Assembly: GCA_001784565.1 (NCBI GenBank)
Contig: MFRL01000057.1
Coordinates: 10,000-55,910, forward strand
Direction: 5' to 3'
Length of the DNA stretch: 45,911 nucleotides
DNA from: Candidatus Melainabacteria bacterium GWF2_37_15
GTDB lineage: Bacteria; Cyanobacteriota; Vampirovibrionia; Gastranaerophilales; UBA9971
Shown: positions 3,148 through 38,766 of the stretch, one piece after another
Layout of the letters: each line of letters begins with the position of its first letter
Numbering within the stretch: the stretch's first letter is position 1
Notes under the pieces: generated by a model
Database searches by the model: none
Told to the model about the DNA's origin: nothing
The model's input: the letters and a program-made list of their open reading frames with translations, nothing else
Position numbers and translations under genes: made by a program

Positions 3148-3185
3148 AAAAATATGTGGGTTACAAATATATGGAGAAAAAGTGT

Positions 3186-3497
3186 ATGTTAAGTTCAATA
3201 TCTTCTAAAAATGTATGTTTTGGAAGAATGACATTGGAAAGGGAAAAACGTCCTAGGATTGTAGATGGTTTAAGCTTCAAAACAGTTACAGGAGATCAAA
3301 AAGTACAAGAAGGTGATGTACTGACTAAAAATACTGGCTGCTTCGGTGTAACTAACTATTTAGTTAGTAATGTGAAAGATGGAGAGGTAAAAGCTATTGA
3401 TTTACAACATCCAGGCCTTAGAGAAATAACTCTGGAACAAGATTCTTATACCAATAACCCATATAAGAAAATCGGGCATTTAAGCTATCAAGACTAA
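3186..3497 (+). CDS. Small protein with N-terminal V-C-F-G motif
   Basis: A 103-aa protein of unknown function. It starts M-L-S-S-I-S-S-K-N-V-C-F-G-R, matching the N-V-A-F-G-K pattern of the proteins at 31444 and 38521. The rest is hydrophilic with no membrane segment or known motif. I chose the ATG at 3186, supported by GGAG 9 bases upstream; the frame also contains GTG at 3156. It lies on the opposite strand between the leuD-type and idh genes and its last bases overlap the leuD-type stop (3494-3497), so the two genes converge. The shared upstream element at 3123 suggests co-regulation with other small F-G proteins. Confidence 0.7.
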   Translation: MLSSISSKNVCFGRMTLEREKRPRIVDGLSFKTVTGDQKVQEGDVLTKNTGCFGVTNYLVSNVKDGEVKAIDLQHPGLREITLEQDSYTNNPYKKIGHLSYQD

Positions 3498-9924: not shown

Positions 9925-10164
9925 CTATGCTTGAGGGTCGAATTTGTCAGCAACTAGTTGCTCTAATAAGATGTTGTTCTTAGCTGCAAGATAGACTGCT
10001 TGTAAACCATAATTTGAAGAAGAGCCATCTGCAATATCAAAATGTCTTCTATTACTGAGAGCTTCTTTAGTTTCCTTCATTTTTTGTTTAACAGCACTTG
10101 GCTCAATTGATTGAGCTCCAAAAGTGTTAACTTGGCTTCTTTGGATGCCTAAATTTGATAACAT
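9925..10164 (-). CDS. Small protein with N-terminal N-T-F-G motif, 79 aa
   Basis: Unknown 79-aa protein starting M-L-S-N-L-G-I-Q and carrying V-N-T-F-G-A-Q at about residues 12-18, the position where other small proteins here carry V-A-F-G. The remainder is a predicted helix rich in K/E (K-Q-K-M-K-E-T-K-E-A-L) and a second helix N-Y-G-L-Q-A-V-Y-L-A-A-K. I chose the ATG at 10164 because AAAGGAG precedes it; the frame runs open to 10209. It has its own terminator (9876) and the shared element (10216), so it is a single-gene unit. Confidence 0.72.
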   Translation of the reverse strand: MLSNLGIQRSQVNTFGAQSIEPSAVKQKMKETKEALSNRRHFDIADGSSSNYGLQAVYLAAKNNILLEQLVADKFDPQA

Positions 10165-10215
10165 AAATAATTCTCCTTTTTTTATAAAATACTTATTTAC
10201 ACATTCCAAATAGTC

Positions 10216-10305: not shown

Positions 10306-11404
10306 ATGACTATAGAATATAAAAAAGCATTATTAGAAATAAATGAAACCCTTACCCAGGTAAGAGGTTGTCTTTGACCCGGATAAAATTCAAAACCAGA
10401 TAGCTGAACTGGAAAACCGGCTCCAGAGCCCCGATATTTGGAACGACCAGCAGCAAGCGCAGAAATTATCCAGGGAATTAAGCGACCTCAAATCAGGAAT
10501 TGAAGAATATAATAATTGGAAAACCCGCTCCGACGACATAGAGGTCCTTATTGAACTGGCGGAAGAAGAACAGGATGAGTCCTTATACCCGGAAATCGAG
10601 GCGGAAATCGCAAAACTAAAATCTGAACTCGATAAATGGGAACTCCAGAGAAAATTAGGCGGAGAATATGATGATTCTGACGCGATTTTGACTATTAACG
10701 CAGGCGCTGGCGGCACTGACGCGCAGGACTGGGCCGAAATGCTTCTTAGGATGTATTTAAGGTGGGCAGAGTCACGAGGCTGGAAAACAGAAATCCTCGA
10801 CACATCGCAAGGTGAAGAAGCCGGAATTAAAAGTGCAACAATAAAAGTAAGCGGCAAATATGCCTATGGATACGCAAAAGCAGAAAAAGGCGTGCATCGG
10901 CTCGTGAGGTTATCGCCGTTTAATTCCAGTAACAAACGCCAGACCAGCTTTGCATCGTTGGAAGTAAGTCCTGTTATGGTTGATATTGAATCTAAAGTGG
11001 ATATAAGCCCGGATGATCTTGAGGTAACCACAATGCGTGCTGGCGGAGCAGGCGGCCAGAATGTTAATAAGGTGGAAACAGCAGTAAGAATCCTGCATAA
11101 ACCCAGCGGCATAGTTGTTAAATGCCAACAGGAACGCTCTCAATCCCAGAATAAAGAGTTAGCAATGCAGCTTCTAGCGTCAAAACTATTGGCAATAAAG
11201 CAGGCGGAACATGAAAAGAAAGTTGCAGAGTTGAAAGGTGAGGCTATGGATGTGAATTTTGGCTCACAAATCAGGTCTTACGTGTTTCATCCTTACAAAA
11301 TGGTCAAAGACCTGCGTACGGGCTATGAAACCGGAAATGTGGAGGCTGTCATGAATGGGGAGCTGGACGGGTTTATTGAAGCATATTTAAGGATGAATAT
11401 TTAA
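10306..11404 (+). CDS. prfB: Peptide chain release factor 2 (programmed +1 frameshift)
   Basis: RF2 recognises UGA and UAA stop codons and triggers peptide release on the ribosome. The short first frame runs from ATG at 10306 (AAGGAGGA 5 bases upstream) through 23 codons to CTT followed by an in-frame TGA at 10375. Slipping +1 reads GAC at 10376 and continues to 11404, giving 365 aa, the same length as E. coli RF2. In that numbering S-P-F (203-205), the stop-codon-reading tripeptide, and G-G-Q (249-251), the hydrolysis motif, fall where expected. Simple ORF calling sees only a 5'-truncated fragment from 10688. Frameshifting provides autoregulation by RF2 level. Confidence 0.95.
10363..10378 (+). 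promoter_or_regulatory. prfB programmed frameshift site
   Basis: AGAGGTTGTCTTTGAC: an internal Shine-Dalgarno-like AGAGGT, then CTT TGA C. This is the classic RF2 slip site, where a slow UGA decode lets tRNA-Leu shift +1 to UUU. It differs from the E. coli spacing sequence only upstream of CTT. Confidence 0.92.
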
Positions 11405-11474: not shown

Positions 11475-12368
11475 ATGCTTTCAGGAAATGTGTCTTCTCA
11501 AATTTCTATATCTTCACATGCACCTTCCCGTAAACCTTCGTTTAAGGGCAGCATAAGGATTGATGCTGTAAATAAAAATTGTGTAGCTAAATTGCTTCTT
11601 GGTGCTGATTATAAAAAAATTGTTGGTGAAGCTAACAATACTTTGTTGGATGACTGGAATCCCGGAGTGTTGTTGGTAAAAGGGCTGCGTGGAGCTAAAG
11701 AAACAATTAGAGCCTGTTTGGACATAAAACCCGAAAGCCATCTTGATATAATTTTATCTGGCAAACCGTGGAAACAAATAGCAGATGAGTTAGTTAAAAC
11801 ATTTAATGAGTTAAAGCAAGGCACACTTATTGATAAACCTAAACCTCAGTTTGGTGATATTGTTGCTTTTTCAAACAAGCCAACCACGTATATTACGGAT
11901 ATAGCTTCCAGAAAAATAAGCCATATAGGAATAATGGTTAATGACAGGGACATTTTAGAAATTGATAGATCGCGAATGGGTATATTTCCGTTAGATAAGG
12001 TACTAAGATTGCCAACGAAGCCTAGTCGTTTTAACGAAAGAAAAGCGTATTTATGTTCATTAACTGATAATTCCAGGGAAAAAATACAAAGTGTTCAAAC
12101 CCAGGTTCAAAATCTTATGGCAGAAATGGCAAAGAAAAAATATAGTAAGCTGCAATGTCTGAAATTAGGGTTTAGTAAGGTATTTGGGTATGAAATACCG
12201 GAAAGAAAAAATCGTGTAACAATTATATGTCCTGAAGCTGTAGGGAAGGTGTTTAAGAAAGCTGAAATTCTTCATTCAAGCGTTAATGTATCCAAGTTAA
12301 CCCCAAGAGATGTTGTTGATTTAAACATATACACCGATATATTTGAGCGGGTATCCAGGATACAATAG
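11475..12368 (+). CDS. Permuted NlpC/P60 (YiiX-like) protein with N-terminal S-F-K-G motif
   Basis: A 297-aa protein. Residues 1-30 contain P-S-F-K-G (21-25), the motif shared with other proteins here. The centre has G-D-I-V-A-F (127-132), then I-S-H-I-G-I-M (148-154) and an acidic I-L-E-I-D. Later comes I-I-C-P-E-A-V-G-K-V-F (250-260) and T-P-R-D-V-V-D-L. Order G-D-I, His, then C-P/S-E is that of circularly permuted papain-fold peptidase/amidase proteins (YiiX/YebB type), with H150 and C252 as the likely catalytic pair. Substrate unknown; cell-wall peptide or lipid amide are family options. No signal peptide is visible and no clear ribosome binding site precedes the ATG. A TGTATAAT -10-like box lies at 11438-11445. 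It converges with the double-CheW gene. Confidence 0.65.
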   Translation: MLSGNVSSQISISSHAPSRKPSFKGSIRIDAVNKNCVAKLLLGADYKKIVGEANNTLLDDWNPGVLLVKGLRGAKETIRACLDIKPESHLDIILSGKPWKQIADELVKTFNELKQGTLIDKPKPQFGDIVAFSNKPTTYITDIASRKISHIGIMVNDRDILEIDRSRMGIFPLDKVLRLPTKPSRFNERKAYLCSLTDNSREKIQSVQTQVQNLMAEMAKKKYSKLQCLKLGFSKVFGYEIPERKNRVTIICPEAVGKVFKKAEILHSSVNVSKLTPRDVVDLNIYTDIFERVSRIQ

Positions 12369-12372
12369 CTAT

Positions 12373-13437
12373 TTAAACTGAATCCTCAATAAACAGTCGC
12401 TCGTCCTCAACAAATTTCTTCATGTCGAAAATACTCATTACCTTGTTATCAGGTAGTAGAACCTCTGCCAGGGTGTATTTATTTTTCTCGTATTTTGTTT
12501 GTATATTTAAATTCATTTTTTCTGTTGGAATATTTTCTATGTCGAATACGTCATCTACAAGTATTCCAATCTGGATGTCGGATATTTTTACAACAATCAC
12601 CTTTGTTTTTTCGGAAATCGGGGTTTTAGTGATTTGCAGGAAATACTTTATATCCACGATAGTTATGAATTCTCCTCGCAGGTTTATTATTCCGGTAATA
12701 AATTCAGGCACACAGGGAACGGATACAAAACTTACAAGCTTGAGCTTGGTTATTTCCTTAACGTATTTAAGGTTAATGGCGTATATTTCCTTCTCCATAC
12801 AAAATGAGATAAAGTAGTTTTCCTGATAGTTAAGGTTTCCTGTATCAACCCTGGCTTCCTTTTGCAGTTTCTCAGCCCTTTTTAATAGTTTTGTTTTAGA
12901 AATAGGATCGGTAGGAAAATATTTCTGAGGAATACTTACTTTTTCCACTTCCATGGAATTTATTTCAACATTTTCCACGCTTTGTAGTATTAATTCTATG
13001 TCCAGAAAAGCTATTAGAGAATCATCATGCTTATAAATGCCGGTAATTATTTTTTCATTTGACTTATAAGGAAGGGGAGTGAAATACTTTTTATCCAGCA
13101 TAGTGACGTCTTTTATGGAACTCACAACGATCCCCACAGATTTTTCGTTGCAGTCGAGGATCAATACCTGATAGTCGGTGGTGTATGTCTGGGATTCTAG
13201 TCCTAATAACTTAGAAAGGTCGAGTATGTTTATTATCTGACCCCTTAAATTCAAAAGCCCGATTATATATTCAGGGAATTTTTCAATCACGGTAAGGGCA
13301 GGAATTTGCACAATTTCCCTTATTTTTTCAGCAGGAACAGCATAGGTTTTTTCCGCAAGGTTAAATATTAAAAATAGTTCAGTATCTTTTTCCTCTAAAA
13401 GTGGGCGAATTGCCAAAAAATCCCCGTTCATACTCAT
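12373..13437 (-). CDS. Tandem CheW-domain coupling protein
   Basis: A 354-aa protein with two CheW domains. The first spans about residues 17-150 (Y-A-V-P-A-E-K-I-R-E-I-V and G-L-L-N-L-R-G-Q-I-I-N-I-L-D). The second spans about 205-345 (Y-A-I-N-L-K-Y-V-K-E-I and G-I-I-N-L-R-G-E-F-I-T-I-V-D), joined by a charged linker. CheW links receptors to the CheA kinase in signalling arrays. It follows the REC-GGDEF gene with an 8-base gap and is divergent from the receptor-cheA pair, so it likely serves that same array. AGGA precedes the ATG by 6 bases. A double CheW may bridge neighbouring receptor-kinase units. Confidence 0.9.
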   Translation of the reverse strand: MSMNGDFLAIRPLLEEKDTELFLIFNLAEKTYAVPAEKIREIVQIPALTVIEKFPEYIIGLLNLRGQIINILDLSKLLGLESQTYTTDYQVLILDCNEKSVGIVVSSIKDVTMLDKKYFTPLPYKSNEKIITGIYKHDDSLIAFLDIELILQSVENVEINSMEVEKVSIPQKYFPTDPISKTKLLKRAEKLQKEARVDTGNLNYQENYFISFCMEKEIYAINLKYVKEITKLKLVSFVSVPCVPEFITGIINLRGEFITIVDIKYFLQITKTPISEKTKVIVVKISDIQIGILVDDVFDIENIPTEKMNLNIQTKYEKNKYTLAEVLLPDNKVMSIFDMKKFVEDERLFIEDSV

Positions 13438-22013: not shown

Positions 22014-23930
22014 ATGCAAGTATCTGCTTTAAATTCTCTGCAAAATAATTATTCTGTAAAAACCCTGAAAAAATCTGAAAACAATCAAACACAATTACAA
22101 AATCAGACGCATATAATCAGTTTTCAGGGCGCACAGGGGATGCGATCCGCTGTGTTAGCAAAAAGTTTATCATTCAAAGGCCAACCTATTCCCCAGCAAC
22201 TTAAAATAATACCCACAGAAGAAAACGGCGAACAGACCGGAGTCTCAAACCTTCTAGCCTTGCCTCAGGGTAAATATGAAATCCCAAATTCGAGCCTGGA
22301 AGTAGTGGCTAATGGAAAACGTAATTTTAAAGAAGTTAAAGTAATACATGGTGATAAGGAAATATTGGCGGTAAAAAGCGAGAAAGCGATATCTCCTGAT
22401 TTAGAGGTTAAATTCACCGAAGGTAAGGACGGAAAAGTAGCAACCCTTACAGGTGACGGCTTTAAAGCTGTGGCAATCGAAGGCTCGGAAATAATAAGGG
22501 ATGGATTTGAATTCAAAATGCCCTCATATAAAAAACAGGTGGAAAAACAGGTGAGATTTGGAGCAAGCTATCACCCTATTATGGCGTTTAAGCCGGAAGT
22601 AACACAACAGGCTCTGGAAAAATCTTTGCCATATATAAATGAGTTATCTGAAAAATTCCCGATAGATGAAGAACTGGACAAAAATTATACAGTAGTCCAG
22701 ACAATAGGAGGGTTTGGCACCAGGTTGTGTAGCCTTGGTAATAAAACATCAGCAAACACTCCGGCAGGAATACCTTTATTAGCTTATTCACTTTTACCGG
22801 TAATACAGGCAGGAATCAGGATTCCGTTTAGTGTCCTTCCTGAAAATACTACTATTGAGGAAGATATTTCAGTAGGAACCGCAGGTGGCGTGATAGAAGG
22901 CATTGAAACCGGTAAAGTCCCGACAGATAAAAATATATTAATAGTGCCAGGTGATGGAATCCACGATATTAATATAAAACCTGCCCTTAAGGCATTCCAT
23001 AAAAATAAAGAAGCAGGCATGATGCTGATAGGAAATGCTGTTCCACAGGACCAGATCAGTAAGTTTGGAATTATTGGTACTGATACTAAAGGACTTGTAA
23101 CCAAATTTATAGAAAAACCCAAATCTCCTGATTTTGCAAAAGAAGGCATAATCACAGATGCCAATGGTAATTACGACAAAGAAAATCCAAAATACAACGC
23201 AAGTATTGCCCTTTACGCGTTAAAACCACCTGTTACTAAGGCTTTCCTTGCCCTGGGTGATATAGTCAGGGCTGATAACAAGGAATATGATTTTGGAAAG
23301 CATGCCCTTCAATCTCTACAGGTACTATGTAACGAGGATATTTTAGACAATACAGGAAAAATTGATAAAAATAAATTTAATGAAGTTCTCAACACACTTG
23401 ATGAAAAACACCCGTTAAAAAAACTTGTTCAAAAAGCCGGCGTTGATAAGCTGGTTAAATCTATTAAAAAAGCAGGCCTTTCTGTACAAGACACAAAACA
23501 AGCCTTGCATGAAACCGATAAGGCTATTAATGTTGTTCGTGAGAAAGACAAGAACAATTGGTTAATTCAAGCAGTTAATGAGATGGGAATCAACCCGGTA
23601 ATTAAACAGCTCAATCCTGTGGTTCAGATGCTTAAGAATAAAGACGGCGAAAGAATGAAAATGATTGCTTATGCGGGTGATGCTGATTGGGCTGATGTGG
23701 GCACTATACCTCAGTTCATTGACACTTCAAGGCAAATTGCAGCTGGCGAATCTTTTATAAATCTTCCGAAAGAAATTAGACAAGGGTTTAAGGATAATGT
23801 TCTGGAAACCGGAATATCCTATATTCCTTCTTCAGAAACAGATAAACGTTCCCCAAAAGAAGCATTTAAGTCGTTTTTAGGTGAAAATGGAACAGCAAAA
23901 GGCAATATTGTTGTTATGGAAAATGAATAA
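22014..23930 (+). CDS. Nucleotidyltransferase-domain protein with N-terminal motif extension
   Basis: A 638-aa protein. Residues 1-220 are an unfamiliar extension with I-S-F-Q-G (35-39), L-S-F-K-G (52-56) and V-R-F-G-A (180-184), echoing the short motif of other proteins here. Residues about 225-400 form a sugar-1-phosphate nucleotidyltransferase core: G-G-F-G-T-R-L (232-238), P-A-G-I-P-L-L, V-G-T-A-G-G-V (287-293), V-P-G-D-G-I-H-D-I-N (311-320) and F-I-E-K-P-K (365-370). An insertion of roughly 110 residues lies between Y-D-F-G-K-H-A-L and the C-terminal W-A-D-V-G-T-I, segments that are close together in standard enzymes. The sugar and nucleotide cannot be told. GTATAAGGAAAAAC precedes the ATG. 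Confidence 0.75.
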   Translation: MQVSALNSLQNNYSVKTLKKSENNQTQLQNQTHIISFQGAQGMRSAVLAKSLSFKGQPIPQQLKIIPTEENGEQTGVSNLLALPQGKYEIPNSSLEVVANGKRNFKEVKVIHGDKEILAVKSEKAISPDLEVKFTEGKDGKVATLTGDGFKAVAIEGSEIIRDGFEFKMPSYKKQVEKQVRFGASYHPIMAFKPEVTQQALEKSLPYINELSEKFPIDEELDKNYTVVQTIGGFGTRLCSLGNKTSANTPAGIPLLAYSLLPVIQAGIRIPFSVLPENTTIEEDISVGTAGGVIEGIETGKVPTDKNILIVPGDGIHDINIKPALKAFHKNKEAGMMLIGNAVPQDQISKFGIIGTDTKGLVTKFIEKPKSPDFAKEGIITDANGNYDKENPKYNASIALYALKPPVTKAFLALGDIVRADNKEYDFGKHALQSLQVLCNEDILDNTGKIDKNKFNEVLNTLDEKHPLKKLVQKAGVDKLVKSIKKAGLSVQDTKQALHETDKAINVVREKDKNNWLIQAVNEMGINPVIKQLNPVVQMLKNKDGERMKMIAYAGDADWADVGTIPQFIDTSRQIAAGESFINLPKEIRQGFKDNVLETGISYIPSSETDKRSPKEAFKSFLGENGTAKGNIVVMENE

Positions 23931-31443: not shown

Positions 31444-31953
31444 ATGCTTAAACAAGTAGGAATTACACCAGCAATAACTACCTCGCAAAAAAATGTCGCT
31501 TTTGGAAAAGGCAGATTAGAAGTTAGAGAAAATAATATTGGACTGTTACAAGATATAGCTGATGTTATGGAAGATAGATATACGGGAAAATCCCCTGATG
31601 GTAAAAGGGATGGCGAATATTGCTTTAAATCTAATCAACCTACAAAAGATGGTATTATGCTAAATAAAAAAAATGGCAGATACTATATTGAATTCAGGAA
31701 TAATGATGGAGTCAAAGGTAAAATTACTACAAATAATAGTAAACAAGATGCGGAAAAAAGAAAAAATGGACTATTAACAGAAGGAATTCTGGGAGGTATA
31801 GCTGAAGAGGCATCAGACGGCAAAATTAAATTTGCGCCTGATGCTGATGATGAACAATGGATTATTAAGTATATATCCCAGGACGTTGAAAAAGAAGAAC
31901 CTTCTGAATTTAGAAAAAGGTTTGAAAGTGGTTTAAAGAGATTAGTGGTGTAA
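31444..31953 (+). CDS. Protein with N-terminal N-V-A-F-G-K-G motif, 169 aa
   Basis: Unknown hydrophilic protein. Residues 1-25 contain Q-K-N-V-A-F-G-K-G-R-L-E-V, nearly the same as S-V-A-F-G-K-G-L-L-Q-V in the gene at 38521 and N-V-C-F-G-R-M-T-L-E at 3186. The rest (G-R-Y-Y-I-E-F-R-N-N-D-G-V-K-G-K-I) looks beta-rich and shows no known domain or membrane segment. GAGGAAAAAATT before ATG supports the start. Single gene, with a hairpin ACTTTA-GTAT-TAAAGT past its end at about 31982. Confidence 0.72.
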   Translation: MLKQVGITPAITTSQKNVAFGKGRLEVRENNIGLLQDIADVMEDRYTGKSPDGKRDGEYCFKSNQPTKDGIMLNKKNGRYYIEFRNNDGVKGKITTNNSKQDAEKRKNGLLTEGILGGIAEEASDGKIKFAPDADDEQWIIKYISQDVEKEEPSEFRKRFESGLKRLVV

Positions 31954-38520: not shown

Positions 38521-38766
38521 TTAACTAAATAAATCTACATTTTTGCCTTCATTTTCGGCTCTTAAGTATTTTCCTGCCACTTTTTCAGCTGACAAATATA
38601 GTCTTTTATATTTTCCATTAGTTAAATTTACATTAGTCATAGTCTCTCTGTTATTGCTATGATCTTGAATGTTTGCTACCTGATGAGTGGGAATGAAATA
38701 ACCTTTTTCAACTTGTAAAAGGCCTTTACCAAAAGCTACTGAGCTGTGTGAAATTCCATTTAACAT
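38521..38766 (-). CDS. Small protein with V-A-F-G-K-G motif, 81 aa
   Basis: Unknown 81-aa protein starting M-L-N-G-I-S-H-S-S-V-A-F-G-K-G-L-L-Q-V. Nine of the twelve residues V-A-F-G-K-G-x-L-x-V-x-x align with the protein at 31444, while the remainder differs. It is hydrophilic and beta/turn-rich. AAGGAG precedes the ATG. A T-tract CAG sequence (38802-38828) and a 28-base palindrome (38824-38851) lie upstream. Flanked by repeats on both sides. Confidence 0.72.
   Translation of the reverse strand: MLNGISHSSVAFGKGLLQVEKGYFIPTHQVANIQDHSNNRETMTNVNLTNGKYKRLYLSAEKVAGKYLRAENEGKNVDLFS

Follow-up and report, generated by a model that had tools for sequence, protein, structure and literature searches.

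Genomic setting of the gene

The window discussed here is the whole 45,911-nucleotide stretch of DNA that was analyzed, and it represents contig C57 of a 2.27 Mb host genome assembled in 102 contigs. The host is an uncultured, gut-type relative of cyanobacteria in the order Gastranaerophilales. On the forward strand of the window, an open reading frame (ORF) that begins with an ATG at position 11475 and ends with a stop codon at 12368 encodes a protein of 297 amino acids. Taken together, the ORF (11475–12368), its coding score, homology and alignment point to a divergent permuted papain-fold protein of the Peptidase_C92/BcPPNE type. The coding score of the ORF frame exceeds that of all five other frames (+0.093 per codon, as against -0.52 and -0.82 for the other two forward frames) and is lower than the scores of the training genes (about 0.22–0.24) and of the conserved neighbors. 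No strong Shine-Dalgarno sequence is visible upstream of the ATG at 11475.

The prfB gene lies upstream, ending at 11404, and a convergent CheW-like gene lies downstream on the reverse strand (12373–13437); the C92 gene thus stands alone. Its neighbors in the genome (prfB, chemotaxis genes and secA) give no clue to a substrate, and no phage remnants were seen adjoining it in the window.

Organization of the protein

The N terminus is a polar leader comprising residues 1–25 (11475–11549, forward strand), recognized by its composition and by a recurrent motif. It ends in PSFKG, of which S-F-K-G occupies residues 22–25 (positions 11538–11549), within the 30 N-terminal residues where the initial annotation had located it. 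Residues 1–26 are 58% S/T/N/Q/P/G, with no acidic residues. No lipobox is visible, and the reported lack of a signal peptide is borne out by a maximum 19-residue Kyte-Doolittle mean of 0.07 over the first 40 residues. This lack is no anomaly, because BcPPNE, the permuted papain-like NlpC/P60 enzyme of Bacillus cereus, is described as likely cytoplasmic (PMC3142127). The same point qualifies the earlier statement that enzymes of this kind are usually exported or lipid-associated: it is only half right, since links to lipids are documented for the family, of which a hydrophobic S1 (lipid) pocket is one character, but BcPPNE is the closest solved relative.

Between the leader and the catalytic domain is an extension (residues 26–116; 11550–11822, forward strand) that is mostly predicted helix, the helices being assigned at low confidence only. 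No relative of this extension was found, and the region is mostly absent from the three homologs described below (L003, L004 and L005). The catalytic domain (residues 117–297; 11823–12365, forward strand) is permuted, with the His/Glu half first and the Cys half second. The motifs originally read in this domain are all present and in the order claimed: GDIVAF (residues 127–132; 11853–11870, forward strand), with a G-D entry strand that is invariant in the aligned C92 rows; S-H-I-G-I-M, which includes H150; and I-C-P-E-A-V, which includes C252. Near the C terminus, alignment identifies TPRD (residues 276–279; 12300–12311, forward strand) as a T/S-P-x-D/T motif common to L003, the phage relatives and the YiiX-type rows.

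Relationship to Peptidase_C92

The window protein matches no family in Pfam or NCBIfam; PF05708 (Peptidase_C92, YaeF/YiiX) gives no match up to E 10, nor does it match anywhere in the host's own genome. Assignment to C92 therefore runs by chained homology only, through two direct homologs that do match the family. These are L004 and L005, near-identical prophage proteins of genome G009, which match the window protein at about 6e-5 (roughly 25% identity) and PF05708 at 4e-10 and 5e-10, over the curated cut-off. A third protein from the same genome, L003, matches the window protein at E 2.9e-13. In profile comparison with hhalign, the pair formed by the window protein and L003 aligns with the phage group at 97.3% probability (P 1.7e-11), and the latter aligns with the C92 proteins of the class at 96.9% (P 1.7e-10). 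When the PDB was searched with profile A1, built from four sequences (the window protein, L003, L004 and L005), the top match was 3kw0, the structure of BcPPNE, at E 1.2e-4, and YiiX (2if6) was listed at 1.2. By sequence comparison, then, the homology of the window protein to Peptidase_C92 is indirect but solid. Single-sequence phmmer searches of Pfam, NCBIfam, PHROG and the PDB also returned acetoacetyl-CoA reductase and 3-oxoacyl-ACP reductase matches, which were weak and inconsistent and were set aside as chance.

Relatives are rare. Among 383 genomes of the order, three match the window protein by sequence, one of them only through a match (L006) inside a MutS2-like protein, which was discarded as spurious; three also match by family profile. 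Within the host's family, matches occur in two of 10 genomes, the host's own included. Scans of genome contigs and viral contigs with the window protein or profile A1 recovered no relative.

The predicted active site and fold

In BcPPNE, the catalytic triad consists of Cys154, His49 and Glu64, with Tyr127 as a fourth residue (Xu et al., PMC3142127). Placed on this numbering with a chain offset of 19, H150, E162, Y223 and C252 of the window protein align with H49, E64, Y127 and C154 in a five-row alignment of BcPPNE and C92 members, and H150 precedes C252, as the permuted order has it. The predicted catalytic His (H150; 11922–11924, forward strand) and the predicted nucleophile (C252, a TGT codon at 12228–12230, forward strand) fall in columns that, like those of the G and D, are invariant across 17 aligned rows. 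The predicted third residue, E162 (11958–11960, forward strand), sits on Glu64 in the pairwise and five-row alignments and is shifted in a nine-row MAFFT alignment; as a sequence-based assignment it may be called moderately firm. The predicted fourth residue, Y223 (12141–12143, forward strand), is placed by the five- and nine-row alignments and not by the two-row one, and the Tyr column is nearly invariant in alignment A4. L003 keeps the His and the Cys, whereas the Tyr is replaced by Phe and a clear Glu is missing; this subgroup may therefore have an active site that is drifting.

BcPPNE is the closest solved structure to the window protein, with which it has in common the permuted order and the lack of a signal peptide. 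The two are distant in sequence, however; BcPPNE has neither the N-terminal extension nor the F-x-G leader, and the helical insert between the Tyr and the Cys differs. Escherichia coli YiiX/YaeF (2if6, PF05708) shares with the window protein the order G-D, S-H-x-G, E, Y and C-S-E-L, as well as the C-terminal P-x-D/T, and its fourth catalytic Tyr is Tyr115. In contrast to YiiX/YaeF, the window protein falls below detection by the Pfam model, has no signal peptide and reads CPEA in place of CSEL.

Structure prediction with AF2 gave a pLDDT of 42 for the full-length protein from four sequences, and a pLDDT of 72.9 with a pTM of 0.73 for residues 117–297 from ten sequences, still a mediocre model whose only good fold matches are viral. 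A Foldseek search of the domain model against the PDB found no match (best E 1.6). Against the viral library BFVD, the top group had probabilities of 0.98–1.0 and included a named YaeF/YiiX C92 protein, a result that is supportive rather than decisive because the TM scores are only about 0.4–0.48. The original call of a YiiX-like permuted papain protein is thus upheld by chained homology and the match at four active-site residues, and weakly by the fold search; the permuted papain fold itself is probable.

Phage counterparts of the gene

The nearest annotated relatives of the window protein belong to a phage C92 “moron” (PHROG 1128; L004, L005, L140 and L141). The C92 gene has tail genes on one side and an M15-like endolysin on the other in the G009 prophage contigs that carry L004 and L005 (C51 and C57 of that genome) as well as in IMG/VR contig L140; the order tail gene, C92, endolysin is read in all three. 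PHROG 1128 is labelled as enoyl-CoA hydratase-like and looks like a mislabelled C92 family. The phage proteins share the Cys-motif helix and an SxLTPxD motif with the window protein; unlike it, they have no leader, tag or extension and sit in a tail-lysis gene neighborhood.

Such relatives raise the question of whether the window gene is itself a phage moron, captured from a tail-C92-endolysin cassette, that acquired the extension and the tag and either works for the host today or persists as a relic. The setting of the phage genes in Gastranaerophilales phages and the sporadic distribution of the gene in the order (the three matching genomes of 383) speak for such an origin, but identity to the phage proteins is only about 25%, and prfB, chemotaxis genes and secA, rather than phage remnants, lie alongside. 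Capture from a phage is possible; domestication of a cassette gene as a full account of this protein is rather doubtful.

A recurrent N-terminal tag

Statistics on the tag were drawn from roughly 1.58 Mb of host sequence by comparing predicted proteins with composition-preserving shuffles. F-[KTQNRS]-G or F-G-[KNARS] occurs within the first 45 residues of 152 proteins, compared with 104 in the shuffles (z 5.2). The same pattern is not in excess at residues 60–104 (91 versus 94 shuffled), and replacing Phe with Tyr or Leu yields no excess over shuffles. SFKG itself is found in the first 45 residues of five host proteins, compared with 0.9 in shuffles, which makes a chance origin of the tag unlikely. 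A broader F-x-G/F-G-x pattern occurs in the first 60 residues of 179 proteins (115 shuffled), with a z of 6.7 that is partly post hoc because this pattern was tested after inspection; at residues 80–139 of host proteins it shows no excess. Counts of the FKG tripeptide are only weakly raised in the host genome, and enrichment in a smaller sample from G009 was not significant.

Tagged proteins are defined here as those whose polar leader lacks a hydrophobic core and ends, by about residue 60, in F-x-G or F-G-x. The window C92 protein, with PSFKG at residues 21–25, belongs to this group. The tag is absent from L003, its only chromosomal relative, which reads LSFSAK (FSAK). Three homologous proteins of about 550 residues have the motif at corresponding sites, as PNFGN, PAFGN and PSFKG; the host encodes two of them, and the third comes from a different family of the order. 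In the window, a protein with an NTP_transferase domain, a nucleotidyl transferase (22014–23930, forward strand), has two copies of the tag, SFQG at residues 36–39 and SFKG at 53–56. Its homologs from seven mostly Gastranaerophilales metagenome-assembled genomes (MAGs; 24–26% identity) keep F-x-G at both places, reading NFEG, SFEG or EFQG at the first and NFAG or NFTG at the second; besides one uncultured bacterium, its named relatives come only from Candidatus Gastranaerophilales MAGs. In two independent protein families, the motif persists although the rest of the leader varies.

Members of the tagged group include GH77, GGDEF, AAA, trypsin-like, GNAT and AvrB-like proteins. Such variety is more in keeping with a general handle for sorting or docking than with a signal for secretion alone, without being proof of either. 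The proposal that the C92 protein is the best enzyme to test was a matter of opinion, the tag being carried by many other enzymes as well. Several short unknown proteins of the window have a similar leader: 38521–38766 (reverse strand) and 31444–31953 (forward) with AFGKG, 3156–3497 (forward) with CFGRM, and 9925–10209 (reverse) with TFGAQ. On host contig C68, a tagged protein (L079:2952–3773) matches AvrB_AvrC (PF05394), a plant-effector-like family, at E 1.7e-15. On host contig C88, the F-G-N tag of a trypsin-like protease (L099:10517–11437) comes before an RR-type (Tat-like) signal and a hydrophobic stretch, which would place the tag ahead of a signal peptide. The tag resembles the FGLK motif, which the literature confirms in plant transit peptides, and nothing found here points to homology between the two. 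No description of the Gastranaerophilales motif was found in the open literature searched.

Probable catalysis and location, and a possible role of the leader

Considered as a whole, the protein is probably a divergent, active C92 cysteine hydrolase that acts in the cytoplasm and bears an order-specific leader motif as a handle. We infer the activity, substrate and location of this protein and the role of its tag, and a C92/BcPPNE-type enzyme working as a cytoplasmic amidase or deacylase seems the most likely form. In such an enzyme, H150 would activate C252, with E162 orienting it; C252, as a thiol nucleophile, would attack the carbonyl of an amide (or thioester), and Y223 would hold the carbonyl oxygen. 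From the family one would expect a lipid-linked substrate; by comparison with BcPPNE and YiiX, the enzyme is likely to cleave an acyl-amino-acid, a lipopeptide or some small peptide within the cytoplasm. For those two enzymes too, activity as an amidase or acyl-amide hydrolase is a proposal, so far unproven (PMC3142127). The leader ending in PSFKG would most likely serve as a sorting or docking handle deciding where the enzyme works; that SFKG sets the location or the partners of the C92 enzyme is speculative.

The leader could be read differently, as a type III-style export signal, with SFKG a part of it, of an effector-like enzyme whose C92 domain acts outside the cell on lipidated or peptide targets. 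Its acid-free composition rich in S/T/N/Q/P/G would suit such a role, as would the AvrB/AvrC-like protein, a GNAT transferase and a putative metallopeptidase among tagged proteins. Viruses and pathogens also have permuted papain enzymes among their host-interaction proteins (PMC3142127). An FHIPEP export-gate protein is present in all 60 genomes sampled from the order, and in all 7 that were tested individually, so the gene content allows for flagellar-type export. Against secretion, a tagged 4-alpha-glucanotransferase, GGDEF protein, AAA ATPase and nucleotidyl transferase look intracellular; the motif is missing from the flagellar export substrates of the window (the starts of FlgD-, FlgE- and FliK-like proteins); and one tagged protease has its RR-type signal after the tag. 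On balance, export is unlikely. As to the export-gate genes themselves, the host has two full-length FHIPEP (FlhA-type) paralogs: L077, on contig C66, is of a type found among basal-body genes and retained almost throughout the order, and L083, on C72, is of a type that adjoins FliP/Q/R/FlhB-like genes and that family f2 lacks. A further protein of about 480–500 amino acids, comprising only the C-terminal part of FHIPEP, is also order-wide.

A catalytically dead papain-fold protein whose groove is used for docking would account for the low overall conservation, the loss of the Tyr and of a clear Glu in L003, and the Pro that replaces Ser after the Cys, but the window protein is intact at all four catalytic positions, which makes this improbable.

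In this probably active hydrolase with its lineage-specific leader, the tag deserves the closest attention. The C92 enzyme by itself belongs, at a great sequence distance, to a family for which the natural substrates have yet to be settled. A wider proposal, which we offer only tentatively, is that Gastranaerophilales sort dozens of otherwise unrelated enzymes per genome by this N-terminal motif, the enzymes being delivered by or docked to a dedicated receptor, with the C92 protein as one cargo. If true, a motif that unrelated enzymes share throughout an order both abundant and largely uncultured would mark a sorting system undescribed in the open literature searched, and the C92 protein, through C252, would provide a catalytic readout for the effect of the tag on location or partners.
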